NCBI RefSeq assembly: GCF_000380165.1
Contig: NZ_KB904657.1
Span: 1-64,000 of the forward strand
Direction: 5' to 3'
From: Wenjunlia vitaminophila DSM 41686
GTDB lineage: Bacteria > Actinomycetota > Actinomycetes > Streptomycetales > Streptomycetaceae
Length of the DNA: 64,000 bases
Shown here: positions 41,138 through 64,000 of the stretch, piece after piece
Position numbering within the stretch: the first letter of the stretch is position 1
Layout of the letters: each line of letters begins with the position of its first letter
The notes under the pieces: model-generated
Told to the model about the DNA's origin: nothing
What the model saw: only the letters and a program-made list of their open reading frames with translations
Database searches by the model: none
Translations under genes and position numbers: made by a program

Positions 41138-44100
41138 ATGATGACCAGAACGCCCAACCAGGACCCGGAACCCTCCGGGTCGGGAGCACGGCGGCGTTCA
41201 CCGGGGGACCAGCAGGGCTTCAGCCGCCGGCAGGCGCTCACCGCGGCGGCCGCGCTGGGCGGTGCGCTGCTGCTGTCCCCCGTGGGAGGCGCGGGCACGG
41301 CCCGGGCCGCCGAGCAGGGCGGGCACGGGTTCGACACCGGCCCGGCCGCTGACGCGTTGCGGCGCCTGCTGCCCGGCCACCACCGGCAGTTCACGCTGCG
41401 GGCCGTCTCCGGGCGCGACGGCGAGCGGTTCCGGGTCACCGGCGGCACCGGACGGATCACCGTCGAGGGCACCAGCCCCGCGGTCCTGCTGACCGGTGTC
41501 AACACCTACCTGACCCGGGTGGCCAGGGCCGACATCTCCTGGAACGGTGAGCAGCTCGACCTGCCCCGCCAGCTTCCCGCCGTCGGCACCGAGATCACCG
41601 GCCGGGCCAACGTCCCGCACCGCTTCGCCTTCAACGACACCAACGAGGGCTACACCGGCCCCTACCGCGACTGGCCGGCGTGGGAGCGGGAGCTCGACGT
41701 CCTCGCCCTGCACGGCATCAACGAGGTGCTGGTCTACATCGGTTCCGACGCCGTCTACTACGACACGTTCCGGGAGTTCGGCTACTCCGACGCCGAGCTC
41801 AGGGCGTGGATACCGGGGCCCGCGCACCAGCCGTGGTGGCTGCTGCAGAACATGTCGGGCTTCGCGGGTCCGGTCTCCAGGCAGCTCCTCGACCGGCGCG
41901 CGGCGCTCGCCCGGAAGATCATCAACCGGGTGCGGGAGCTGGGGATGACCCCGGTGCTGCCCGGCTACTACGGCACGGTCCCGGACGACTTCCCGGCCCG
42001 CAACCCCGGCGCCGCGGTGGTGCCGCAGGGCGGGTGGGGCGGCTTCAAGCGGCCCGACTGGCTCGATCCCCGGACACCGGCCTTCGCCGCGGTCGCCGCG
42101 TCGTTCTACCGGCACCAGCAGGAGCGCTACGGCAGCAGCACCATGTACAAGATGGACCTGCTGCACGAGGGCGGCCGGCCGGGGGACGTCCCGGTCGGCG
42201 ACGCGGCCAGGGCGGTGGAGTCCGCGCTGCGCACCGCCCACCCCGGCGCCGTCTGGGCCATCCTGGGGTGGCAGTCCAACCCCAGCCGGCAGATCCTCGA
42301 CGCCGTCGACACCAGCGCCATGCTGGTCGTGGACGGTCTCTCCGACCGGTACACCAGCGTGACCGACCGGGAGAGCGACTGGCAGGGCACCCCCTACGCC
42401 TACGGCTCCATCTGGAACTTCGGCGGCCACACCGCGCTCGGTGCCAACGCCCCCGACTGGGTGGAGTGGTACCCCAGGTGGCGGGACAAGGACGGCAGCG
42501 CGCTGTCCGGCATCGCCGTGATGCCGGAGGGCGCGGACAACAACCCCGCCGCCATGGCGCTGCTCACCGACCTCGCGTGGACACCCGGCACCATCGACCT
42601 GGACGAGTGGTTCGCGCAGTACGCGACGAGCCGCTACGGCGCCCCGGACGCCAAGGCGCTGGCCGCCTGGAAGGTGATCCGCGACACCGCCTACAACATG
42701 ACCCGCTCGGACTCCTGGAGCGAGGCGCCCGACGGGCTGTTCTGCGCCCGGCCCAGCCTGACCACCAACAAGGCCGCCGCCTGGGGGCCCGCGGGCGAGC
42801 GTTACGACACCACGGCCTTCGACCGGGCGCTGCCGGCCCTGCTGGACGTCGCCCCCGAGCTGCGCGACAGCTCGGCCTACCGTTACGACCTGCTCGACGT
42901 CACCCGCCAGGTGCTGTCCAACCGCAGCCGGTGGCTGCTGCCGCAGATCAAGTCGGCGTACGAGCTGGGCGACCGTGCGCGCTTCACCGAGCTCACCGGG
43001 GTCTGGCTGGGCTGGATGGAGCTGATGGACAGGGTGCTGGCCACCAACGACCAGCACCTGCTGGGCCGTTGGCTCGCCGAGGCGCGGTCGTGGGGGGCCA
43101 CCGCCGCCGAGCAGGACCTGTTGGAGTACGACGCGCGCTCCCTGCTCACCACCTGGGGCGACCGGCAGAGCAGCGAGGAGGGGCTGCACGAGTACGCGAA
43201 CCGGGAGTGGTGCGGCCTGGTGGGCGGCCTGTACCGGGACCGGTGGAGGAAGTACTTCGACGAGCTGTCCGCGGCCCTGGCCGAGGGGCGCGCCCCGGCC
43301 GCGATCGACTGGTTCGCCGTGGACGACCGCTGGGCGCACCAGCACGACACGTACCGCACCACCCCCACCGGCGACATCCACCGGCTGGCCCGCCGGGTGA
43401 TGGCCACGCTGGCCGCCGACCCGCACCAGACGTCGTTGACGGCGTCCACGGACACCGCGGCGGTGAGCGACGGCCGTCCGGTGACGGTCACCGTGACGTT
43501 CACCAACCGCAACGGCTTCTCCCCCGCGACGGGGTTGGTGTTGTCGGTGGAGGCGCCCGAGGGCCTGGCGGTGGAGCCGGTGGGTCCCTCGGGGGCCGAC
43601 TCGGTGGCTTCCGGCGAGACGTTCACCGCGACCTTCCGGGTGACCCTCACCGGGGGCGTCCCGGACGTGGTGCTGCGACTCCCCGTGAAGGCGTCCTACC
43701 GGACCGGGACGTCCACCGGGGTGGCCGTGGCCTCGGTCCGGGTGATGGCGGGGATGCCGGTGGGCGAGCCGTACCTGACCGCCTCCTTCAACGGCGCCGT
43801 CTTCGGCCAGTCCGGGTCGGTGCTGGCCATCGAGGGTGCCGGCGCCGACCTGTGGGGGGGCACCAACGAGTTCGGCACCGTCTACCGGGCGGGCGCGTTC
43901 ACCGACGGTTCGACCGCGACGGTGCGGGTGGCCTCCCAGGACAACACCGGCGGCTGGGCGCGGGCCGGGCTGATCGTCCGCAACGAGCTCGCCGTCAACG
44001 GCTCGACGGGGTACGTCAACCTGGCGGTGACCCCGGGCAACGGCTGTGTGCTGTCCTGGGACGCGGGCGGCGACGGCCGCTTCGACACCATCGCCATGAA

Positions 44101-44317
44101 GGGCTCGTTCGCCGCCCCGGTGTACCTGCGGCTGACCCGTTCCGGCGGGACCTACACCGGTGAGTGCAGCTCCGACGGCACCACCTGGACCACCGTGGGC
44201 ACGGCCACCCCCGGTGGCGCGGCCACCGCGCAGGACGTCGGCGCCTTCATGACGGCGGCCAACGGCTGGACCGGTACCCGCGGGATCGCCACGTTCGACG
44301 GCTTCACCGTGGGCTGA
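41138..44317 (+). CDS. exported GH89 alpha-N-acetylglucosaminidase with C-terminal modules
   Basis: A 1059-residue enzyme with a Tat signal (FSRRQALTAAAALGGALLLS, ARAA). The NAGLU/GH89 body has HRFAFNDTNEGYTGPYRDW, GINEVLVYIGSD, candidate acid/base Glu in MDLLHEGG, SIWNFGGH, candidate nucleophile Glu in AVMPEGADNN, and a late helical domain. GH89 removes terminal alpha-GlcNAc, for example from gastric-type mucin or heparan. After about residue 765 come a NEW3-like domain and the same final module as in GH31. ATGATG allows starts at 41138 or 41141. Confidence 0.93.
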   Translation: MMTRTPNQDPEPSGSGARRRSPGDQQGFSRRQALTAAAALGGALLLSPVGGAGTARAAEQGGHGFDTGPAADALRRLLPGHHRQFTLRAVSGRDGERFRVTGGTGRITVEGTSPAVLLTGVNTYLTRVARADISWNGEQLDLPRQLPAVGTEITGRANVPHRFAFNDTNEGYTGPYRDWPAWERELDVLALHGINEVLVYIGSDAVYYDTFREFGYSDAELRAWIPGPAHQPWWLLQNMSGFAGPVSRQLLDRRAALARKIINRVRELGMTPVLPGYYGTVPDDFPARNPGAAVVPQGGWGGFKRPDWLDPRTPAFAAVAASFYRHQQERYGSSTMYKMDLLHEGGRPGDVPVGDAARAVESALRTAHPGAVWAILGWQSNPSRQILDAVDTSAMLVVDGLSDRYTSVTDRESDWQGTPYAYGSIWNFGGHTALGANAPDWVEWYPRWRDKDGSALSGIAVMPEGADNNPAAMALLTDLAWTPGTIDLDEWFAQYATSRYGAPDAKALAAWKVIRDTAYNMTRSDSWSEAPDGLFCARPSLTTNKAAAWGPAGERYDTTAFDRALPALLDVAPELRDSSAYRYDLLDVTRQVLSNRSRWLLPQIKSAYELGDRARFTELTGVWLGWMELMDRVLATNDQHLLGRWLAEARSWGATAAEQDLLEYDARSLLTTWGDRQSSEEGLHEYANREWCGLVGGLYRDRWRKYFDELSAALAEGRAPAAIDWFAVDDRWAHQHDTYRTTPTGDIHRLARRVMATLAADPHQTSLTASTDTAAVSDGRPVTVTVTFTNRNGFSPATGLVLSVEAPEGLAVEPVGPSGADSVASGETFTATFRVTLTGGVPDVVLRLPVKASYRTGTSTGVAVASVRVMAGMPVGEPYLTASFNGAVFGQSGSVLAIEGAGADLWGGTNEFGTVYRAGAFTDGSTATVRVASQDNTGGWARAGLIVRNELAVNGSTGYVNLAVTPGNGCVLSWDAGGDGRFDTIAMKGSFAAPVYLRLTRSGGTYTGECSSDGTTWTTVGTATPGGAATAQDVGAFMTAANGWTGTRGIATFDGFTVG

Positions 44318-50377: not shown

Positions 50378-50410
50378 TCAAGGCTGTTCGGCTGTGCCGA
50401 ACAGCCTTGA
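50378..50410 (+). terminator. perfect 15-bp hairpin
   Basis: The arms 50378-50392 and 50396-50410 pair perfectly over 15 bp with a three-base TGT loop. It lies 264 bases after the LuxR-type stop and 143 bases before the next gene. It could terminate readthrough toward the exported protein gene; without a T-tract an RNA processing or attenuation role is also possible. Confidence 0.7.
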
Positions 50411-50483
50411 CGCACTACGGGACCAGCACACCCACACCAAGGGGTTGACCACGCCATTCGCACACTCCTACGATCCCACCACC

Positions 50484-50500
50484 GTTCTGCAATACAGAAC
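50484..50500 (+). promoter_or_regulatory. IclR-type operator candidate
   Basis: A perfect inverted repeat GTTCTG-N5-CAGAAC (50484-50500) with centre CAATA is followed by a further GTTCT half-site at 50504-50508. The pattern matches operators bound by IclR-family regulators. It lies about 50 bases before the beta-helix gene start. No IclR gene is in the window. Confidence 0.65.
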
Positions 50501-50552
50501 AGCGTTCTCAAAAGGGGCGCTTCGCATCCCTTCAGCCCTTCAGGAGTGCCCT

Positions 50553-52694
50553 GTGGACCGCCCCGACACGACCACCCGGCGCCGGATGCTGCGCGCCTCC
50601 GGCCTGGCCGGACTGACCGCGGCGGGCGCCGTGGTCGCCGCCTCCCCCGCCGCGGCGGCTGGCTCGCCCAGCCAGAACCCCCCGGCGTACGACACCGTCA
50701 AGGAGTTGCTCGCCCGGTCCCCGCGCCAGAACCTCGACGGGGACACGGCACTGGTGAACGGGTACCACCGGCCCGGTGACGGTGGCGGCATGGTCGTGCG
50801 CTGGGACGCGTCCTCCACCGCCGCCCCCAACGGGGGAACCGTGCTGGCGCCGGCCCAGGCCACGGCTCAGGGCCGCTGGATACAGATGCACGACGGGGTG
50901 CAGGACTTCCGTCGGTTCGGACACTTCGACGCGGAGCGGCCGGCGGACGACGCCCTCGACGCGATGGTGGAGGACCCCGCGGTGCACCGCGTCGAGGCCC
51001 ACACCGACCTGCTCTTCACCCGCCGCCACGTGTTCGACCGGTCCGGGATCGAACTCGACTTCGGGGGACACACCGTCCACTCCACGGGCATCGAGAAGAA
51101 CACCCATGACAACCCGTTCGGGGCGGTGCTCGCCTTCCGCGGGACCGTCACCGACACCTCGGTCAGCTACGCCCTGCCCGCCACGGTGATCGAACTCACC
51201 GACACCTTCCCGGTGCCGGACTCCTCCGCGTTCCGGGTCGGCCAGTGGTGGACGGTCCAGGTGGACCCGGTCAAGGGCGGCGGCAGGGACGAACGCGAAC
51301 TCCAGAAGCTGGTGGAGATCACCGAGATCGTGGACGGCACCCACGTCCGGATCGGCTATCTCAACGGCTGGGAGCTGGCCCAGGGGCGGACACTGACCTG
51401 GACCCGGGTGGAGCCGGTGCGCCGTGCGCACGTGCGCGACATGCGCTTCCTCGGTGCGGGCGACGACGAGTACACCGGATCGCACCCGGTGTCCTACGAG
51501 TACGCCGTGGACTGCGACGTGCGGGACATCCACGCCACCGGGACCTTCTGGCCCGTCATCATGCGGCGCTGGTGCACCCGCTTCAGCACCGAGCGGTGCT
51601 CGCTGAAGAACCCCCCGACCGTGTTCTACGGCGGCGCCGGCTACCTCACCCAACAGATCTACTGCCTGTACGGTCGGGTCTCGGACTGCGTGACCAGCAA
51701 CGTCCGTCACCTCAACGACCTGACGGCCTCGGCCTACTGCACCGTCGTCAACTGTCACGGCGACGGCGACGACGCCGGTGGCAACCCCTTCACCACCCAC
51801 GGCCAGTACGAACACGACCTGCTCTTCGACGGCAACTCCGGGCTGATGGACATCGCCAACTCCGGGGCGCAGTGGGGGATCTCGGCCAAGCGGATCACCG
51901 TCCGCAGACACGTCTGCTCCTGGTTCACCGCCAACACCAAGATCACTGACCTGACCCTCGAGGACGTCACGGTGATCGCCCGGCCCACCTTCGACCAGGC
52001 CGGCACCCTGACCGTCAACGCCGACGGGGCGCAGGTCCGCGGCTGCACCGCGAAGTTCTTCGCGGTGGCCCAGCGCTCCGCGCGCTCCCGCCGGCCGACC
52101 GTGATCAGCGACTGCTCCTTCGCCCTCCCCGCGGGGACCGTCCTGGTCCAGACGCCGGTCACCGCGCCGGTCCACTTCGAGCGCTGTGTCCTCACCGGAC
52201 TCGACGGCGTGGTCCTGCGCGGCTCGGGTCCCGTGCGGTTCACCGACTGCACCCTGGAGGGCGCCAACGGCTCCGCCGCCCCGCTGTCCGTGGGCTCGAC
52301 CGACCTGGTGGTGGAGTCGGGCGCGCTGCGGGACACCGGTATCCAGCTCACCGCGGTGCGGGACCAGCGGGTCCACCTCACCGGTGGGGTCCGGCTCTCC
52401 GGGACCAACGGCTCGGGAGCGCTGCTGAGCCGCTCGGACGGCCCCGGCCGGATCACCTGGCAGCTCTCCGGCGTCACCAGCGACACCGACGCTGCCACCG
52501 CCCACCTGCGGATCGCCCACGGCACCAACCACGTGGCGGCCACCTCCAGCCGGTTCACCGGCGGCCGGCTGCACCTGGAGCCCGACGCCTGCGCCGACGT
52601 CCTGTACAGCTCGTGCGTCGAGGACGGCACCCAGCGCACCGCGATGCCCCAGGACGGGGACACGGTCCGCACCGACGGCAACCTGGTGTTTTAA
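50553..52694 (+). CDS. Tat-exported protein with beta-helix-like repeats
   Basis: A 713-residue protein starting at GTG after AGGAG. The signal is twin-arginine-like (TTRRRMLRASGLAGLTAAGAVVAA, ending AAAA). The mature N-terminus includes YHRPGDGGGMVVRWD, a strand typical of phage tail-spike and glycan-active beta-helix proteins. The rest is a run of short beta-strand rungs (for example CDVRDIHATGTFWPVIMRRW, VQVRGCTAKFFAV-like segments) consistent with a right-handed parallel beta-helix. A polysaccharide lyase or glycosidase role is possible, but I see no defining catalytic motif. Confidence 0.8.
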   Translation: MDRPDTTTRRRMLRASGLAGLTAAGAVVAASPAAAAGSPSQNPPAYDTVKELLARSPRQNLDGDTALVNGYHRPGDGGGMVVRWDASSTAAPNGGTVLAPAQATAQGRWIQMHDGVQDFRRFGHFDAERPADDALDAMVEDPAVHRVEAHTDLLFTRRHVFDRSGIELDFGGHTVHSTGIEKNTHDNPFGAVLAFRGTVTDTSVSYALPATVIELTDTFPVPDSSAFRVGQWWTVQVDPVKGGGRDERELQKLVEITEIVDGTHVRIGYLNGWELAQGRTLTWTRVEPVRRAHVRDMRFLGAGDDEYTGSHPVSYEYAVDCDVRDIHATGTFWPVIMRRWCTRFSTERCSLKNPPTVFYGGAGYLTQQIYCLYGRVSDCVTSNVRHLNDLTASAYCTVVNCHGDGDDAGGNPFTTHGQYEHDLLFDGNSGLMDIANSGAQWGISAKRITVRRHVCSWFTANTKITDLTLEDVTVIARPTFDQAGTLTVNADGAQVRGCTAKFFAVAQRSARSRRPTVISDCSFALPAGTVLVQTPVTAPVHFERCVLTGLDGVVLRGSGPVRFTDCTLEGANGSAAPLSVGSTDLVVESGALRDTGIQLTAVRDQRVHLTGGVRLSGTNGSGALLSRSDGPGRITWQLSGVTSDTDAATAHLRIAHGTNHVAATSSRFTGGRLHLEPDACADVLYSSCVEDGTQRTAMPQDGDTVRTDGNLVF

Positions 52695-52805: not shown

Positions 52806-53906
52806 TCAGCAGGGGCTCGCCTCGACGATGCACACCGGGGACGCGGTCTGCACCACGCGCTCAAGCCTGAACCCGGTCTTGGCGAAGACCTCGCTGTACT
52901 GGGAGGCCGAACGCTCCTTGCCGCCGACCAGCAGCATCAACCACAGGTCGATCAGCTTCGCCGGGTGCTGCCGGTTCCCCTTCTCCGGAGCCACGAACTC
53001 CATCAGCAGCAGTCGGCCGTCCGGGTTGATCGCCTCGCGGACGTTCTTGAGGATCTCGATGACCTGCGGCTCGGGCCAGTCGTGCACGATGTGCTTGAGG
53101 ATGTAGGCGTCACCGCCCTTGACGTAGGGCCCGAAGAGGTCCCCACCCTCGATCTCGCACCGGTCGGCGACGCCGGACTCCTGGAGGAACTCCTTGGCGC
53201 CGAGCTCGCCCGCGCGCCCGTCGAAGAGGATGCCGCGTGACTGCGGGGAACGCTGCAGGGCACCGGCGAGCAGGGCGCCGCGTCCCCCGTACACGTCCAC
53301 CACGGTCTGGTAGCGGGAGAAGTCGTAGGCGGCGAGGATGGGCAGTGTCTCCAGGTTGGACAGGTTGCCCATGCCGCCCATGAAGATCTCCGCGTACTCC
53401 GGGTTCTTCTCGAGGTACTCGTACGCGCCCATGCCCCGCGTCTTGGGAATGGTCGGCTGACCGCTGCGCACCGAGTAGGCGAAGTGGCCCCATTCTTCCC
53501 AATGCGTGGGGTGGCCCATCAGCAGTGCTATGGGACGCATCGAATTGGGCGAGTCGCTGCGCAGGGCGTCGCCCATGGACGTCATGGTGAAACGCCCGTC
53601 GTTCTGCTCGGCGAAGATGTCGTAACTGGCGAGCAGGCGCATCAGGCGGTGCAGCGCGTCCGGATCGGCGTCGACCTTCTTGGCCAGTTCCTCCGCGGTC
53701 TGCGGCCCGGAGTGCAGGGCGTCGGCCACCTTCAGGTCGGCGGCGACGTAGATGGCCTGTGTGATCATGGAGCTCTGGGTGAGTTCGAGCAGCGCCATCG
53801 GGCCCGGCACCATCCGCCGGTGCAGCTTCAGAAGACGCGCGCGTACGCCTTCCAGGGCGCGGACGAGACGAACGGGCGGCATCTTCGGGCTGGACGATGC
53901 GGACAT
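52806..53906 (-). CDS. SAM-dependent O-methyltransferase
   Basis: A 366-residue class I methyltransferase of the plant-type/antibiotic O-methyltransferase group. The N-terminal dimerisation helices include SMITQAIYVAADLKVADALHSG with winged-helix features. The SAM site is VVDVYGGRGALLAGAL, followed by GDLFGPYVKGGDAYILKHIVHDWPEPQ (the usual His-Asp catalytic region) and LLLMEFV. The ATG at 53906 follows GGAGGAAA. Such enzymes methylate hydroxyls in polyketides and other metabolites. Its nearness to the StrR-like gene supports a tailoring role. Confidence 0.93.
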   Translation of the reverse strand: MSASSSPKMPPVRLVRALEGVRARLLKLHRRMVPGPMALLELTQSSMITQAIYVAADLKVADALHSGPQTAEELAKKVDADPDALHRLMRLLASYDIFAEQNDGRFTMTSMGDALRSDSPNSMRPIALLMGHPTHWEEWGHFAYSVRSGQPTIPKTRGMGAYEYLEKNPEYAEIFMGGMGNLSNLETLPILAAYDFSRYQTVVDVYGGRGALLAGALQRSPQSRGILFDGRAGELGAKEFLQESGVADRCEIEGGDLFGPYVKGGDAYILKHIVHDWPEPQVIEILKNVREAINPDGRLLLMEFVAPEKGNRQHPAKLIDLWLMLLVGGKERSASQYSEVFAKTGFRLERVVQTASPVCIVEASPC

Positions 53907-54297
53907 GCGTTTCCTCCGTGGCGGTTGCACAGCGATAAGGGACTTCTCCGCGCGTGCGACCGCCGCAACGTGTAAAGCGCACCACGCGTACTTCAGCGGT
54001 CGGGCGGGAACACCAACTCACCCCAGGTGTTGGTTCGCCCGGGTGACTCTAGAGCGGCACCTCAATGGCGAACAACTTCCTGCTGTTGGTGTTCGGGGAG
54101 CGCGTTGAACAGCGCCAACCCCTGGTTTTCGAACGATAGGTTGACCGGGCCGCTGACGGCGGGAACGCGTCCGTCGCCCCCCGGGGTCGGTGCCGCGGTG
54201 GGGCCGTGCAACCGCGGAGCTCCCGCAGTCGAACGCTCCGGTCGGCACCCGGCACGGAAGGCTCCGCGCCGAGGGGCCGCCGCCCCAGGTGCCGCGT
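53907..54297. promoter_or_regulatory. region upstream of the O-methyltransferase gene
   Basis: No gene is supported over 391 bases. An inverted repeat AACACC (54009-54014) / GGTGTT (54026-54031) lies about 100 bases before the methyltransferase start. A second, TGTTC-N12-GAACA, is at 54090-54111, and TTCGAA is at 54128-54133. These are candidate operators, with the StrR-like protein encoded next to them a possible binder. Confidence 0.45.
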
Positions 54298-56590: not shown

Positions 56591-58348
56591 CTACGGGGTG
56601 AGCTGGGGGGAGTGCTCCTCCTCCGCTTCGGCGGGCACGGCCTCAAGGCCGGTCCTGACGTGGCGGGGCAGAGCGAACATGCCGAGGAACACCAAGACCT
56701 GGATACCCACGCCCCACCACAGAGTGAGGCTGAAGCTCCGGGAGAAGTTGTGGGCGTTGGCCTCCTCCCCGGCCTTCTCCAGGAGCTCGCCGAGCCGCGC
56801 CGGGCCGCCCTCGGCGCTGGCCAGGCAGCTCTCCGGTACCTCGGTGGGGTCGTGGGAGGCCGAACGTTCCCGCACGCAGGTACGGAAGCCCGCGAGGATG
56901 TCGCCCCGCTGGTCATCCGGGACGCCGGCGGCGGTGAGCTGCTGCTGGAGGGCCGGGACGACCTTGTCCACCCCCCGGTCGGAGTCGTGGTCGATCTGGT
57001 TGAAGAAGAAGACGCCGACCAGAGCGACGCCGAGCGCCATGCCCACCTGCTGGACCATCCCGAGGGTGCCGGAGGCGGAGCCGGCGTCACGGCCGGGAAC
57101 CCCGGTGAGGATGGCGTCGATCATCGGGGCCACGACCAGGCCGAAGCCGAACCCGGTGACCACCAGCGGCAGCGCCATCTGCCAGGAACTGATGTCGGGG
57201 CCGTAGTGGTCGGCGGCCCACAGGTACGCGGCGAACCCGGCGCCGTTCAGCGCGGCGCCCCCCATCAGCACCTTGCGGCCGAACCTCGGGGTGAACACCT
57301 GCACCGCGAGGCCGGAACCGGTGGCCCCGCCCACCGCGAACGCGGTGCTGGTCAGACCGGCACGCAGGGCCGACCAGCCGAGGCCCATCTGCATGTACAG
57401 CGTCCAGACCAGGAAGAAGCCACCGGCCGCCAACCAGAACAGCATCCACACCGTCATACCGGCGGAGAAGGCGCGGTTGCGGAACAGGCTGAGGGCCACC
57501 AACGGTGAGCCCACCGTCCTGGTGCGGTGGCTCTCGTAGAGGACGAACAGACCGAGCACCACGACCGCGGACCCCATGAGCAGGAAGATCCACAACGGCC
57601 AGCCGCGGTTGCGGCCCTCGGTCAGCGGATAGACCAGCAGCAGGATGCCGAGGATGGACACCACGGCTCCGACCAGGTCCACCCTCGGGGCGTTGCGCGG
57701 CTTGGACTCCGAGACGAAGAACCAGGCAGCGATCAGTGCGGCCAGGCCGATCGGCACGTTGACCAGGAAGATCGAACGCCACCCGAGGTCCGCGGGGTTC
57801 CACTCGATCAGGGCGCCGCCGGTCACCAGCCCGATCGCGGAGGCCGAGCCCATCACGCCGCCCCAGATCCCGATCACCTTGCCCCGCTCCTCCGCGGGGA
57901 AGGAAACGTGGATGATGGCGAGGATCTGCGGGACCATCAGGCCGGCCATGGCCCCCTGCAGGAAGCGTGCTCCGATGAGCATCTCCGGGCCCGTGGCGGC
58001 ACCGCACAGCGCCGAGGCGGCGGTGAAGCTGGCGACCCCGACGAGGAAGAGGCGCTTGCGGCCGAAGATGTCACCGAGGCGGCCACCGGTCACCAACAGC
58101 GCGGCGAAGCCCAGCACGTAACCGGCGACGATCCATTCGGCCTGGGCGTACTCGGCGTCCAGGTCGGTCAGGATGCTGGGCAGCACGACGTTGACGATGG
58201 TCACGTCGAGCAGGTCCATGAACCCGGCGCTCAGAATGATCACCAGGGCGATCCAGCGGCGGGGGTCCGGTTCCCGCCGTGCGGGTCCGCCCGGCTCCGG
58301 CCGGCCTCCCTTGGGCGCCGCGGAGCGGCCTTGCGTGTCGTGGGTCAT
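56591..58348 (-). CDS. MFS exporter, DHA2 (EmrB/QacA) family
   Basis: A 585-residue drug:H+ antiporter-type protein with about 14 transmembrane helices. It carries the DHA2 opening (IILSAGFMDLLDVTIVNVVLPSI), motif A (GGRLGDIFGRKRLF) and RFLQGAMAGLMVPQ. A large extracellular loop near 480-540 carries two Cys. The ATG at 58348 (MTHDTQG) was preferred to an ATG 18 bases upstream. In a cluster with a StrR-like regulator it may export a product or give self-resistance. Confidence 0.93.
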   Translation of the reverse strand: MTHDTQGRSAAPKGGRPEPGGPARREPDPRRWIALVIILSAGFMDLLDVTIVNVVLPSILTDLDAEYAQAEWIVAGYVLGFAALLVTGGRLGDIFGRKRLFLVGVASFTAASALCGAATGPEMLIGARFLQGAMAGLMVPQILAIIHVSFPAEERGKVIGIWGGVMGSASAIGLVTGGALIEWNPADLGWRSIFLVNVPIGLAALIAAWFFVSESKPRNAPRVDLVGAVVSILGILLLVYPLTEGRNRGWPLWIFLLMGSAVVVLGLFVLYESHRTRTVGSPLVALSLFRNRAFSAGMTVWMLFWLAAGGFFLVWTLYMQMGLGWSALRAGLTSTAFAVGGATGSGLAVQVFTPRFGRKVLMGGAALNGAGFAAYLWAADHYGPDISSWQMALPLVVTGFGFGLVVAPMIDAILTGVPGRDAGSASGTLGMVQQVGMALGVALVGVFFFNQIDHDSDRGVDKVVPALQQQLTAAGVPDDQRGDILAGFRTCVRERSASHDPTEVPESCLASAEGGPARLGELLEKAGEEANAHNFSRSFSLTLWWGVGIQVLVFLGMFALPRHVRTGLEAVPAEAEEEHSPQLTP

Positions 58349-58962
58349 GCCGTGCCTGCCTGCCACCCGTGGTGTCGAGCCCGACGGGCCGGGTCGGGCC
58401 CCTGGCCGTCACGTCCGCCTGCCACGCGTCCCGCGTTCGGGGCCCACACGCCGGACCGCCTGCCCCACCGGGAGGGCGGTGAGGGATCGAGCGATATGCA
58501 TGCCATGTCGTGACTCCTTGTCACTCCGGCTCGGTCTGGTTTCTCGCAGCTATGACGGTGGGCGGGACGAGACTGTGACCGGTGCGCCCGACGGCCGCCC
58601 GGGGGACACGTTCTGGCGACGGCCGCGGAACGGCGGGACCCGCGGCTGTGGCGCCGGGCCGGGCGGCGGGGGACGACCGCCGGCGGCGCGACGGCACGCA
58701 GCGGCGGCGACATGGGAAAGTGCCTTCGCGCGGACCACGCACGGCATGTGACGTCGTCGGATCGAAGGCACTCGCTGTGTCGGCGGACGGTGCCCCCGGG
58801 CGGGGTACCCGGGGCCGCGCCCTCCCGTGCGGCGCCACGGCTGCGGCCACCGTCCACGGCGTGCGGCGGTTGACGCGATCAGCCCACGGGGGTCATGGCT
58901 GATCGGCGCCCGGCCTTGCCCTGCGGGTCGCAGCGGGAGGGGCGGTTCACGGGGCCGACGTG
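58349..58962. other. 614-base intergenic region with a long-spaced inverted repeat
   Basis: No gene is supported. AGTGCCTTCG (58719-58728) and CGAAGGCACT (58763-58772) form a perfect 10-bp inverted repeat separated by 34 bases. This could be a pair of operator half-sites or a structured RNA. Upstream of the exporter start the sequence at 58500-58560 is mildly AT-richer and may hold its promoter. Confidence 0.5.
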
Positions 58963-60301: not shown

Positions 60302-60637
60302 ATGCCCTGGGGAAAGACCACTTCGGCGGATGCGAGTGCCGGCCGGGCCGAGCGGATCGCCACACGGTCCCGCAACGAGGTCTGGAAGAAGCCGCCGCGC
60401 CGCATCGAGTCATCGGAATGCATCACCTGTGACACGTGCGTCCGCAACTGCCCACCGGAGTTCGGCGCCATATTTGACCGCGGTCTCGATGTTGTCATCA
60501 TTCCCGAATTGTGCTCGGGCTGCCCCGTGTGCGTGATGGTCTGCCCCGTGGACTGCATATACGTGGACGAGGACTGGACGCCGACCGACAACGACATGTG
60601 GAACCACGTCGAGCTGACCGCGGAGGGGACGTCATGA
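60302..60637 (+). CDS. ferredoxin with two 4Fe-4S clusters
   Basis: A 111-residue electron carrier. Cluster 1 ligands are CITCDTCVRNCP, followed by PEFGAIFDRG. Cluster 2 ligands are CSGCPVCVMVCPVDC, both with the Cx2Cx2Cx3CP spacing. The N-terminal 35 residues are basic and the C-terminus acidic with several Trp. Its ATGA overlap with the next gene strongly suggests it is the dedicated electron donor of that 650-residue protein. Confidence 0.93.
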   Translation: MPWGKTTSADASAGRAERIATRSRNEVWKKPPRRIESSECITCDTCVRNCPPEFGAIFDRGLDVVIIPELCSGCPVCVMVCPVDCIYVDEDWTPTDNDMWNHVELTAEGTS

Positions 60638-62586
60638 CCGCGTCCACCGGGCGCGGCGGGACCACGCGCCGTGCCGCACTGGCCAAGAAGAGGCTCAGCC
60701 GCCGACCGAGCCGGCTCGGCACGTCCGCCGGCACGGCCCCGGCCCCGGACCAGGCCCTCGACCGGTACGCCGGCTTCCCCGGGCTGCTGCGCCAGGTGTG
60801 GCAGCGGGCGACCGCGGCCGACGACCTGCCCACGGCGGTGGACACCCTCCTCACCCTCGGCGGCCACGTCCCCGCCGACGTCCAGCTCCGGGCGCTGCGA
60901 GCGGCCGACGAGGCGGCGCTGAAGGTGCTCTGCGGGGTGTCCTGGCGGGACGACGACGGCTCCCCGGACGGCCCGGAGCCCCCGGCCACGCCGGACCGCC
61001 CGGGCGGTGAACCCCCCGCGTTCCTCGGTGAGCTGGGGCTGACCACGAGCGGTCGGATCGTGGTGCGCGTTCCCTCCCAGGGCCCCCTGGCCAGCGAGGA
61101 GGACCTGGTCGACGGGGTGATGCGGGTACCGTGGTCGGCCCGTGCACTGCTGGACTACCAGACCGAGGTGAGCCGAGCCGCCACCCGCTTCGCCCGCTCC
61201 GTCGTGGACTGCCGCCAGTGGCTGGCCGCCGCGGGCTCCCAGAGCAGGGACAACCTGCTCGAGCAGCTCAAGGAGGCGGCGCAGCGCACCGCGCCGTTCA
61301 TCCTGTACCAGGAGGGCAAGCAGTACACCAACTTCCGGGACCGCAACACCATCACCGGGAAGACGCTGTGGCCCGGCCACCCGGACTGTGCGCTGAGCAG
61401 CCTCCAGAAGATGCCGCTCGAGCTGTGGTCGGACCAGGACGTGGTGATGGTGGTCTGCCTCACCCTGCTGGTGCGCTCGGCCGGCTTCGCCAGGATCGAG
61501 GAGGCCAACGGCACCCAGTTGACGCTGGACCACGTCGCGTACCTGCTCGAGGGCACCCGGCGCACCTACAACGGGGTGCCGGGCGGTCAGCAGGTGCCGG
61601 CGGCGACCTCCACCGGCGTGGAGGCGCTGGACCAGTTGGCGGGCCGGCTGCTCGCCCGGCGCACGGAGGTCCTCGGGACGGCCCAGCTCTACCGGGAGAT
61701 CCACGGCGCGCTGATGCACAAGATCGAGCGGGTCGCCGGCCGGCCGGGGGACGCCGCCCGCATGCGGGAACGGGCCGTCTGCGACCACCTGCGGGAACGG
61801 CTGCCGCTGGACGGGGCGACCCTGGACGAGCTCGAGGCGGAGCTCGCCGCGTCACCGTCCTGGCTGGGGGAGCCGCTGGGCGACTTCGGAACCGGGCTCG
61901 AGGCCCTGGTCCACGCCACGGTGGCGGCGGCGAGGACGGCGTTCGACGCGGACTTCGCGATGAGCCGCGGTCTGCGCTCCCTGCCCCGGCTGATCCGGGC
62001 GCTGCGCGAGCAGGACTGGGAAGACCTCGTCCAGTGGGACCTGCCGGACTACTTCTGCTGCGTGGTGCCGGACCCCAGGGCCCGCCGGTACTTCGAGGAC
62101 TCCGCGGCGAGGCTCGCCGACATGGCGTGGGCGATGTCGTCGCGGATGCAGTACAACTCGTGGCACTTCCTCGCGGGCAACGTCCCCAAGGTGCCGGTGG
62201 TGCGGGCCCGGGACTACTTCGTGCCGCCCACCATCCCGGACATCGCCTTCCACTCCGACCAGCACCACCACGGCCACGTCGCGGCCAAGGTGCGGTTCAG
62301 CATCCGCAGCCCGCAGGCGGTGGAGGTCCTCGGCCAGCCGTTCAACGGGTTCATGGACCTGCGCCTGCTGCGCTGCGCCGGCCGGCCGTTCGACGAACAG
62401 GACATGCTCGCCGCCCACCGCTGCTCGGGGTTCGTCGCCCGGGCGACCAGCCTGGTGGCCTCCCTCGCCGCGGACGGCGCGGACATCGAGATCACGTCGT
62501 TCGACTCCCAGTGGCACTGGGAGCAGGTCGCCGGCGGCACCGGGACCGCGGACGGCGCGGGGGAACCGGCGCGCAGGGTCTCGTGA
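60634..62586 (+). CDS. large protein of unknown function coupled to ferredoxin
   Basis: A 650-residue protein I do not recognise. The first 35 residues are basic and unstructured. A mostly helical body follows, with SARALLDYQTEVSRAATRFA, FILYQEGKQYTNFRDRN and LPLDGATLDELEAELA. Near residue 540 a histidine group (HSDQHHHGH, His540 and His544-546, His548) lies in a beta-like region that continues VRFSIRSPQAVEVLG, suggesting a metal site. A CC pair occurs near 475. No signal peptide or membrane helix is seen. The overlap with ferredoxin points to a redox enzyme. Confidence 0.85.
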   Translation: MTASTGRGGTTRRAALAKKRLSRRPSRLGTSAGTAPAPDQALDRYAGFPGLLRQVWQRATAADDLPTAVDTLLTLGGHVPADVQLRALRAADEAALKVLCGVSWRDDDGSPDGPEPPATPDRPGGEPPAFLGELGLTTSGRIVVRVPSQGPLASEEDLVDGVMRVPWSARALLDYQTEVSRAATRFARSVVDCRQWLAAAGSQSRDNLLEQLKEAAQRTAPFILYQEGKQYTNFRDRNTITGKTLWPGHPDCALSSLQKMPLELWSDQDVVMVVCLTLLVRSAGFARIEEANGTQLTLDHVAYLLEGTRRTYNGVPGGQQVPAATSTGVEALDQLAGRLLARRTEVLGTAQLYREIHGALMHKIERVAGRPGDAARMRERAVCDHLRERLPLDGATLDELEAELAASPSWLGEPLGDFGTGLEALVHATVAAARTAFDADFAMSRGLRSLPRLIRALREQDWEDLVQWDLPDYFCCVVPDPRARRYFEDSAARLADMAWAMSSRMQYNSWHFLAGNVPKVPVVRARDYFVPPTIPDIAFHSDQHHHGHVAAKVRFSIRSPQAVEVLGQPFNGFMDLRLLRCAGRPFDEQDMLAAHRCSGFVARATSLVASLAADGADIEITSFDSQWHWEQVAGGTGTADGAGEPARRVS

Positions 62587-62592
62587 CCTGAC

Positions 62593-62620
62593 GGGCACCG
62601 GCCCGCCGCGGCCGGTGCCC
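62593..62620 (+). terminator. hairpin terminator after the 650-residue gene
   Basis: A perfect 10-bp stem (62593-62602 with 62611-62620) with an eight-base loop begins six bases after the stop. Confidence 0.75.
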
Positions 62621-62667: not shown

Positions 62668-64000
62668 TTGACCTGCACCGGCATTCGCGAGACGAGGGAA
62701 CTCCTCGGCCGGGGAGAGATCACCGTGACCGACCACGTGCAGTCGGTCCTGACCGCGATCCACAAGGTGGACACCGAGTTGGGTGCCTTCGTCTCCGTCG
62801 CCGGGGACGAGGCGCTGCGGGCGGCCGAGGCGGCCGACGCCAAGGTCCGGGCGCTGGGTCCCGCGGCCTGGGCGGACCAGCCGCTGCTGGGGGTCACCGT
62901 CGCGGTCAAGGACCTGGTGCAGACCGAGGACCTGCCGACCACCCGCGGTTCGCTGCTGCCGAACCGGCGGGCCAGGGCCGACGCGCCCGCGGTGGCCCGG
63001 CTCCGGGCGGCCGGCGCCGTGGTGGTGGGGAAGACCACCACGTCGGAGGGCGGCTGGAGCGCCAGCACCGTCGGCCGGGTGGGCTCCCCCACCCGCAACC
63101 CCTGGGCGCTGCGGCGCTCCGCCGGGGGGTCGAGCGGCGGGTCGGCGGCCGCGGTGGCGGCGGGCCTCTGCTCGGCGGCGCTGGGCACCGACGGGGCCGG
63201 GTCGATCCGGATTCCCGCGGCGTTCTGCGGGGTGGTGGGGTTCAAGCCGTCGTTCGGCCGGGTCCCCTACGTCCCGGCCTGCGCGGACCGGCTGGCCCAC
63301 CTCGGTCCACTGGCCAGGTCCGTGTCCGACGTCGTCGAACTGAGCTCGGTCCTCGCCGGCCCGCACCCCGAGGACCCCGACTCGGGCCTGGGCCCGGTCG
63401 GTCCGCCCCGGGCACCGGGCGCGCTGCGGATCGGCTGGATCGAGTTCCCCGGGACCACGGCGGAGGTCCGCCGGGTGAGCGAGGGTGCCCTGCCGGTGCT
63501 CCGCGGGCAGGGGCACCGGGTGGAACGGATCGAGGTGCCGTTCCCCGACCCCTATCCCGCGCTGGTGGACATCCTGGCCGCCGTGGAGGCGGCGGGCACC
63601 GCCCCCGAGGACGAACCGCTGTGTGACCCCGGCCGGTTGGCCGTCGTCCGGTACGGACGCCGGCTGACCGCCGCGGCCGTGGCCCGGGCCGAGGACGTCA
63701 GGTTGCGTCTGCGCACCACGATGCGGTCGGTGATGGCTCGTTACGACCTGCTGGCCATGGCGACGGTGCCGATCGAGCCGTTCGACGCCGAGGCCATCGG
63801 CCCGGACGGGGCCGACGACCCCGAGGGCCTGCGCTGGTTGGCCTGGACGCCGGCCACCTACCCGTTCAACCTGACCGGCCAGCCGGCCCTGTCCCTGCCG
63901 GCCGGGCTCACCCGTTCCGGTCTCCCCGTCGGACTCCAGTTGGTCGGCCCGGTCGGGGCCGACGACCTGGTGCTGACGACCGCCCGGAACGTCGAGGCGG
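62668..64000 (+). CDS. amidase signature-family enzyme (partial, runs off the window)
   Basis: At least 444 residues are visible before the window ends. The amidase signature is complete: catalytic Lys in VTVAVKDLVQ, cis-Ser in GGSSGGSAAAVAAG and nucleophile Ser in GTDGAGSIRIPAAFCGVVGFKP. The late segment FNLTGQPALSLPAG and GLPVGLQLVGP is also typical. The start is probably TTG at 62668, with GAGGAGAG just upstream. The family includes aliphatic and aryl amidases, GatA and enantioselective amidases; sequence does not decide. It follows the unknown 650-residue protein and may act on its product. Confidence 0.9.
   Translation, partial: MTCTGIRETRELLGRGEITVTDHVQSVLTAIHKVDTELGAFVSVAGDEALRAAEAADAKVRALGPAAWADQPLLGVTVAVKDLVQTEDLPTTRGSLLPNRRARADAPAVARLRAAGAVVVGKTTTSEGGWSASTVGRVGSPTRNPWALRRSAGGSSGGSAAAVAAGLCSAALGTDGAGSIRIPAAFCGVVGFKPSFGRVPYVPACADRLAHLGPLARSVSDVVELSSVLAGPHPEDPDSGLGPVGPPRAPGALRIGWIEFPGTTAEVRRVSEGALPVLRGQGHRVERIEVPFPDPYPALVDILAAVEAAGTAPEDEPLCDPGRLAVVRYGRRLTAAAVARAEDVRLRLRTTMRSVMARYDLLAMATVPIEPFDAEAIGPDGADDPEGLRWLAWTPATYPFNLTGQPALSLPAGLTRSGLPVGLQLVGPVGADDLVLTTARNVEA

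Follow-up and report, generated by a model that had tools for sequence, protein, structure and literature searches.

KinJ, FzmP, Lom29 and NegJ form a family of heme enzymes described in 2025 (Kenney et al., PMC12154649). In kinamycin biosynthesis by Streptomyces murayamaensis, KinJ acts with the ferredoxin KinI: nitrite is reduced and joined to L-aspartate, giving L-hydrazinosuccinate. NegJ makes hydrazinoacetate from glycine, and heme b is present in both KinJ and FzmP as purified (PMC12154649). The hydrazino cassette of kinamycin and fosfazinomycin includes genes for a hypothetical protein (KinJ/FzmP), a glutamine-synthetase-like enzyme, a PurB-like lyase and GNAT, and the amidase KinK/FzmO deacetylates glutamylacetylhydrazine (PMC6133997). 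AlpH attaches glutamylhydrazine to the scaffold of kinamycin in a SAM-independent reaction (PMC10477347).

The window analysed here is a stretch of 64,000 nucleotides from Wenjunlia vitaminophila DSM 41686 (contig NZ_KB904657.1, positions 1 to 64,000), and it holds a two-gene unit at 60302-62586 near its end. Based on homology, the predicted fold and analogy with the described relatives, this pair is, with a probability of about 0.93, a hydrazine-forming enzyme of the KinI-KinJ type which would convert L-aspartate and nitrite to L-hydrazinosuccinate. Gene content, gene order, homology, residue conservation and predicted fold are observations on this genome; heme b, ferredoxin dependence, the reaction and the roles of the cassette enzymes are taken from relatives. 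It is likewise from relatives that we infer the same reaction here, the preference for aspartate and the role in a diazobenzofluorene product. The features are collected in Table 1.

Table 1. Features of the KinJ-like locus; positions are those of the window, or of the contig where so marked.
Feature	Position	Strand	Basis
AlpH orthologue, O-methyltransferase-like, predicted glutamylhydrazine loading onto polyketide	52806..53930	-	PDB 8h3t
DHA2-type MFS efflux pump, possible product exporter	56591..58366	-	PF07690; TIGR00711 EmrB above cut-off
KinI-like 2[4Fe-4S] ferredoxin, 111 aa	60302..60637	+	Fer4 dicluster models, invariant Cys, adjacency
KinJ/FzmP/Lom29-family heme enzyme, predicted L-hydrazinosuccinate synthase, 650 aa	60634..62586	+	homology, active-site residues, GAF fold
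C475-C476	62056..62061	+	C475 = KinJ C468; C475 invariant in 35-relative alignment
RMQYNSWH, residues 504-511	62143..62166	+	R504, M505, N508, H511 = KinJ R497, M498, N501, H504
HSDQHHHGH, residues 540-548	62251..62277	+	H548 = KinJ H541, proposed heme axial ligand
G+C-rich hairpin between KinJ-like and amidase genes, no T tract, not a canonical terminator	62593..62620	+	fold z, terminator scan
Amidase, KinK/FzmO homologue	62668..64000, on to contig 64053	+	PF01425 E 2e-97
Glutamine-synthetase-like (Gln-synt_C)	contig 64057-65586
PurB-like lyase (Lyase_1)	contig 65630-66919
GNAT	contig 66903-67304

A ferredoxin gene coupled to a KinJ-like gene

A reading of this DNA from the letters alone (the sequence-only reading) had described a ferredoxin gene overlapping a 650-residue gene by ATGA, and both open reading frames and the overlap, all on the forward strand, were confirmed. 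The ferredoxin is matched by 4Fe-4S dicluster models in a profile search and carries two CxxCxxCxxxCP sets, C40/43/46/50 and C71/74/77/81. These eight cluster cysteines are invariant among 66 sequences, as are R24, W28, K30 and P32-E36 of its N-terminal extension, and its pI is about 4.6. Three marks of a KinI-type ferredoxin are present: the 2[4Fe-4S] type, the N-terminal extension, and a gene adjoining the KinJ gene. The neighbourhood survey that had been proposed as a check bore out the pairing: a ferredoxin reading frame lies directly upstream of the KinJ-like gene in 65 of 84 related loci, and 52 of those 65 have a 4-base ATGA or GTGA overlap. Because of these counts, the pairing of the two genes is not chance.

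The 650-residue protein had been called a protein of no nameable fold or family, and indeed it has no sequence match in Pfam, NCBIfam or the PDB. It had also been suggested to be a metalloenzyme of unfamiliar family, fed by its dedicated ferredoxin and lying outside the P450, Rieske and radical-SAM groups. That was right in kind: no Pfam or NCBIfam model of P450, Rieske oxygenase or radical SAM matches at E up to 1. When plasmid records were searched with tblastn, seven Streptomyces plasmids proved to carry homologues (58-65% identity), and a further one came from Burkholderia (28%). On two of the Streptomyces plasmids a ferredoxin gene is followed, in this order, by genes for a hypothetical protein, (an amidase,) a glutamine-synthetase family member, an adenylosuccinate lyase and GNAT. 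This cassette led to PMC12154649, and the proposal of a new ferredoxin-dependent metalloenzyme family was given up, because the KinJ/FzmP/Lom29/NegJ heme enzymes had already been described in 2025.

By homology, the protein is assigned to the KinJ/FzmP/Lom29 family. It is 56-68% identical to members of the main ferredoxin-linked clade and 24-44% identical to more distant ones, with the distribution of the family drawn from a search of one genome of the same genus, the plasmid tblastn search and a genome scan with two motifs. In the family tree it lies among the ferredoxin-linked, cassette-bearing members, with no well-supported nearest group.

Like KinI/KinJ, the pair joins a ferredoxin gene to a heme-enzyme gene, and it shares the nine named active-site residues, the GAF-like C-terminal domain, the same cassette enzymes and a type II angucycline PKS; unlike KinI/KinJ, it is known from sequence, and neither the CreE nor the CreD homologue of its genome is linked to the cluster. 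Lom29/Lom30 (lomaiviticin, Salinispora) and FlsU2 (fluostatin, Micromonospora rosaria) are also similar. The Salinispora pacifica protein (locus L024) is 65% identical and the M. rosaria protein (locus L033) 62%, each with a ferredoxin and cassette genes, although the window protein falls in no well-supported group with either, and in the Salinispora loci the ferredoxin gene and the large gene do not share the ATGA overlap. FzmP (fosfazinomycin) and NegJ (negamycin) share the family and the core chemistry, whereas their clusters often have no ferredoxin of their own (PMC12154649) and lead to a phosphonohydrazide and a hydrazide.

Other arrangements were seen further out in the family. In two Noviherbaspirillum genomes a KinJ-like protein is fused in-frame to an AMP-binding ligase (L072:10001-13414, 1138 aa; L078:1253-4609, 1119 aa), and in Burkholderia stagnalis (L005) they are encoded by two neighbouring genes with a 4-base overlap. 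Judging by this fusion or overlap, those lineages may activate the hydrazino acid directly, in the form of an adenylate. Wenjunlia tyrosinilytica, a close relative of the window strain, has a distant KinJ-like protein (L080/L002, about 30%) together with amidase, glutamine synthetase, PurB, GNAT, CreE and CreD, and no ferredoxin match was found at this locus. By its sequence the W. tyrosinilytica protein is of a different subfamily.

Predicted fold and active-site residues

The structure of the 650-residue protein was predicted with AlphaFold2 from 35 sequences, giving a confident model (pLDDT 88.8, pTM 0.87). In the fold search that had been suggested along with this prediction, residues ~370-617 matched phytochrome and cyanobacteriochrome GAF domains, with a best Z of 11.4 and an rmsd of 3.2 over 161 residues; by Foldseek alone the GAF similarity is weak (E 0.01). 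Distant GAF similarity is likewise reported for KinJ (PMC12154649), and the model of the C-terminal half has a GAF-like fold, as for KinJ. The N-terminal half (residues ~44-372), folded alone, reached a pLDDT of 92 and had no match among the solved structures in the PDB, where the best Foldseek E was 1.2 and no structure reached a Z of 2. The absence of a PDB match does not prove a new fold. The origin of the N-terminal half of KinJ is also unclear according to PMC12154649.

The residues named for KinJ are K356, C468, R497, M498, N501, H504, H541, R551 and R570 (PMC12154649). All nine are found at a constant offset of +7 from the published KinJ numbering, a mapping made by that offset rather than by alignment to the KinJ sequence: K363, C475, R504, M505, N508, H511, H548, R558 and R577. 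They do not vary among 35 aligned relatives, the most distant of them 24% identical. The genome-scan loci of the survey had been picked up by two motifs that lie in the active site, which makes the invariance of 504-511 and 540-548 among them partly a matter of selection. As an independent check, residues 363, 475, 558 and 577, which lie outside the motifs, were considered together with the loci from a whole-length search (L002, L004, L005 and L006). Both agree, except that the distant Burkholderia protein has Thr at 475; L003, a partial hit only, is excepted from this agreement. This gives the active site proposed for KinJ independent support from sequence.

Two sites had been picked out before any of this was known, a CC pair near residue 475 and HSDQHHHGH near residue 540, and both are where they were said to be. 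At the first, the Ala variant of KinJ C468 lowers heme b content (PMC12154649). The second had been taken for a His cluster binding a metal, and His conservation, the check suggested for it, gave a mixed result. No full-length relative departs from H544 or H548, and H545 is almost invariant; H540 and H546 are freely variable. The conserved histidines stood, and the multi-His metal site was rejected because conservation covers only part of the run. A non-heme metalloenzyme, fed by the ferredoxin and binding its metal directly through this stretch, would fit the two invariant histidines and the lack of a named Pfam or NCBIfam family for the protein. It would not fit the variable H540 and H546, the heme b in purified KinJ and FzmP, or the loss of heme in KinJ H541A (PMC12154649), and we regard it as the least probable of the alternatives considered. 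In PMC12154649, H541 is the proposed axial ligand of the heme, and by homology H548, the last His of the stretch, is the proposed ligand here.

Hydrazino cassette, proposed pathway and probable nitrite supply

The two genes had also been read as a self-contained unit closed by a terminator. The hairpin in question, at about 62593-62620, has no T tract and an unexceptional fold (z -1.39), a terminator scan found none there, and the amidase gene begins, on the same strand, 80 bases after the KinJ-like gene. The closed unit was rejected: the full hydrazino cassette of amidase, glutamine-synthetase-like enzyme, PurB-like lyase and GNAT follows the KinJ-like gene at contig 62668-67304. The order KinJ-amidase-GS-PurB-GNAT recurs at other loci. 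Among the 84 loci surveyed, an amidase gene was found in at least 58, a glutamine-synthetase-like gene in at least 62, PurB in at least 64 and GNAT in at least 54, which are lower bounds because the flanks are limited.

The proposed pathway is as follows. The ferredoxin would dock on the 650-residue protein and pass low-potential electrons to a heme b in the GAF-like C-terminal half, where H548 would serve as its axial ligand. Nitrite would bind the heme and be reduced, and L-aspartate would be held by the conserved arginines R504, R558 and R577. The reduced nitrogen would be joined to the amino group of L-aspartate to give L-hydrazinosuccinate, in a net four-electron, oxygen-independent reaction. 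GNAT may then acetylate the L-hydrazinosuccinate, after which the PurB-like lyase would release acetylhydrazine and fumarate. The glutamine-synthetase-like enzyme would load acetylhydrazine onto glutamate, and the amidase would strip the acetyl group, leaving glutamylhydrazine. The AlpH orthologue would attach this to a benzofluorene-type polyketide from the neighbouring type II PKS, and the attached hydrazine would later be converted to a diazo group.

The amine substrate of the window enzyme could differ, because its relative NegJ uses glycine (PMC12154649). The same heme-ferredoxin chemistry acting on glycine or another amino acid would give a hydrazino acid other than hydrazinosuccinate. 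We consider this very unlikely: the PurB-like lyase and the GNAT encoded downstream are of the kind that acts on hydrazinosuccinate, and the window protein groups with cassette-bearing members, away from the distant ones.

With L-aspartate as the predicted substrate, the nitrite would probably come from CreE and CreD homologues elsewhere in the genome. There is a single close CreE homologue (contig C25:14290-16197, 60% identity) and a single close CreD homologue (contig C46:30877-32280, 64% identity); the CreD query itself best matches CreD 5xny. The two genes are on separate contigs outside the KinJ-like cluster, and they are not neighbours of each other or of the cluster, because they lie too deep in C25 and C46. 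In other clusters CreE and CreD are adjacent; here they are unlinked to each other and to the cluster. Judged by homology, these unlinked genes are the likely nitrite source, and as unlinked genes they need not be co-expressed with the cluster. Their position outside the cluster could also be taken to mean that the KinJ-like gene is a degenerate or silent member retained in a decaying cluster. However, the protein has kept every active-site residue, the ferredoxin and the coupling are preserved, the four cassette genes are intact, and CreDE is absent from most KinJ clusters (PMC12154649), so that decay seems even more improbable than a different amine.

AlpH orthologue, surrounding cluster and likely product

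The gene at 52806-53930 has AlpH (8h3t) as its best PDB match, with E 7e-131 and 57% identity over 359 residues, and it keeps the equivalents of AlpH K266, H267, H270, D271, M174 and L252. The seven closest AlpH matches are all on the seven Streptomyces plasmids that bear the KinJ gene. It differs from AlpH at C201, which hinders SAM binding in AlpH and is Tyr here. Many orthologues have Val or Ile at this position, and the idea of a special Cys-to-Tyr variant was dropped, bulky residues being common there.

After GNAT, the contig continues with a response regulator and then with genes for an acyl-CoA carboxyltransferase, FAD hydroxylases, a KR, an ACP, ketosynthases and polyketide cyclases. 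These type II angucycline PKS genes lie beyond the window on the same contig. One protein of the cluster best matches 5f9p (anthrone oxidase-like), and one oxygenase best matches the angucycline-type 6j0z and FlsO1. The type II angucycline PKS, AlpH orthologue and ring-modifying oxygenases of a diazobenzofluorene cluster are all present. Regulation by StrR, as the sequence-only reading had it, found no supporting profile match, and 54298-55434 hits generic HTH domains only.

Three other genes of the window were noted. A 766-residue protein (50394-52694, forward strand) has an apparent twin-arginine signal, is repeat-like and has no Pfam or NCBIfam match. A small cupin-domain protein (PF07883; 58963-59556, reverse strand) is divergent from the ferredoxin gene. 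An alpha-N-acetylglucosaminidase (NAGLU) gene (41138-44317, forward strand) is apparently unrelated to the cluster.

Based on the AlpH orthologue, the cassette, the type II angucycline PKS and the angucycline-type oxygenase, the cluster is most likely, by sequence comparison, of the kinamycin/lomaiviticin/fluostatin type. Among the papers searched, none linked Wenjunlia to a diazobenzofluorene. It is a tentative suggestion, to which we give less than even odds, that the locus combines a new diazobenzofluorene or hydrazine-bearing polyketide, nitrite supplied in trans by the unlinked CreE and CreD, and an N-terminal half (~44-372) with a fold unseen in solved structures. With the assignment proposed here, an orphan actinomycete cluster would join the small group in which a nitrite-reducing heme enzyme builds a hydrazine independently of oxygen, and its predicted product would be a diazo-type antibiotic of the kinamycin/lomaiviticin type.
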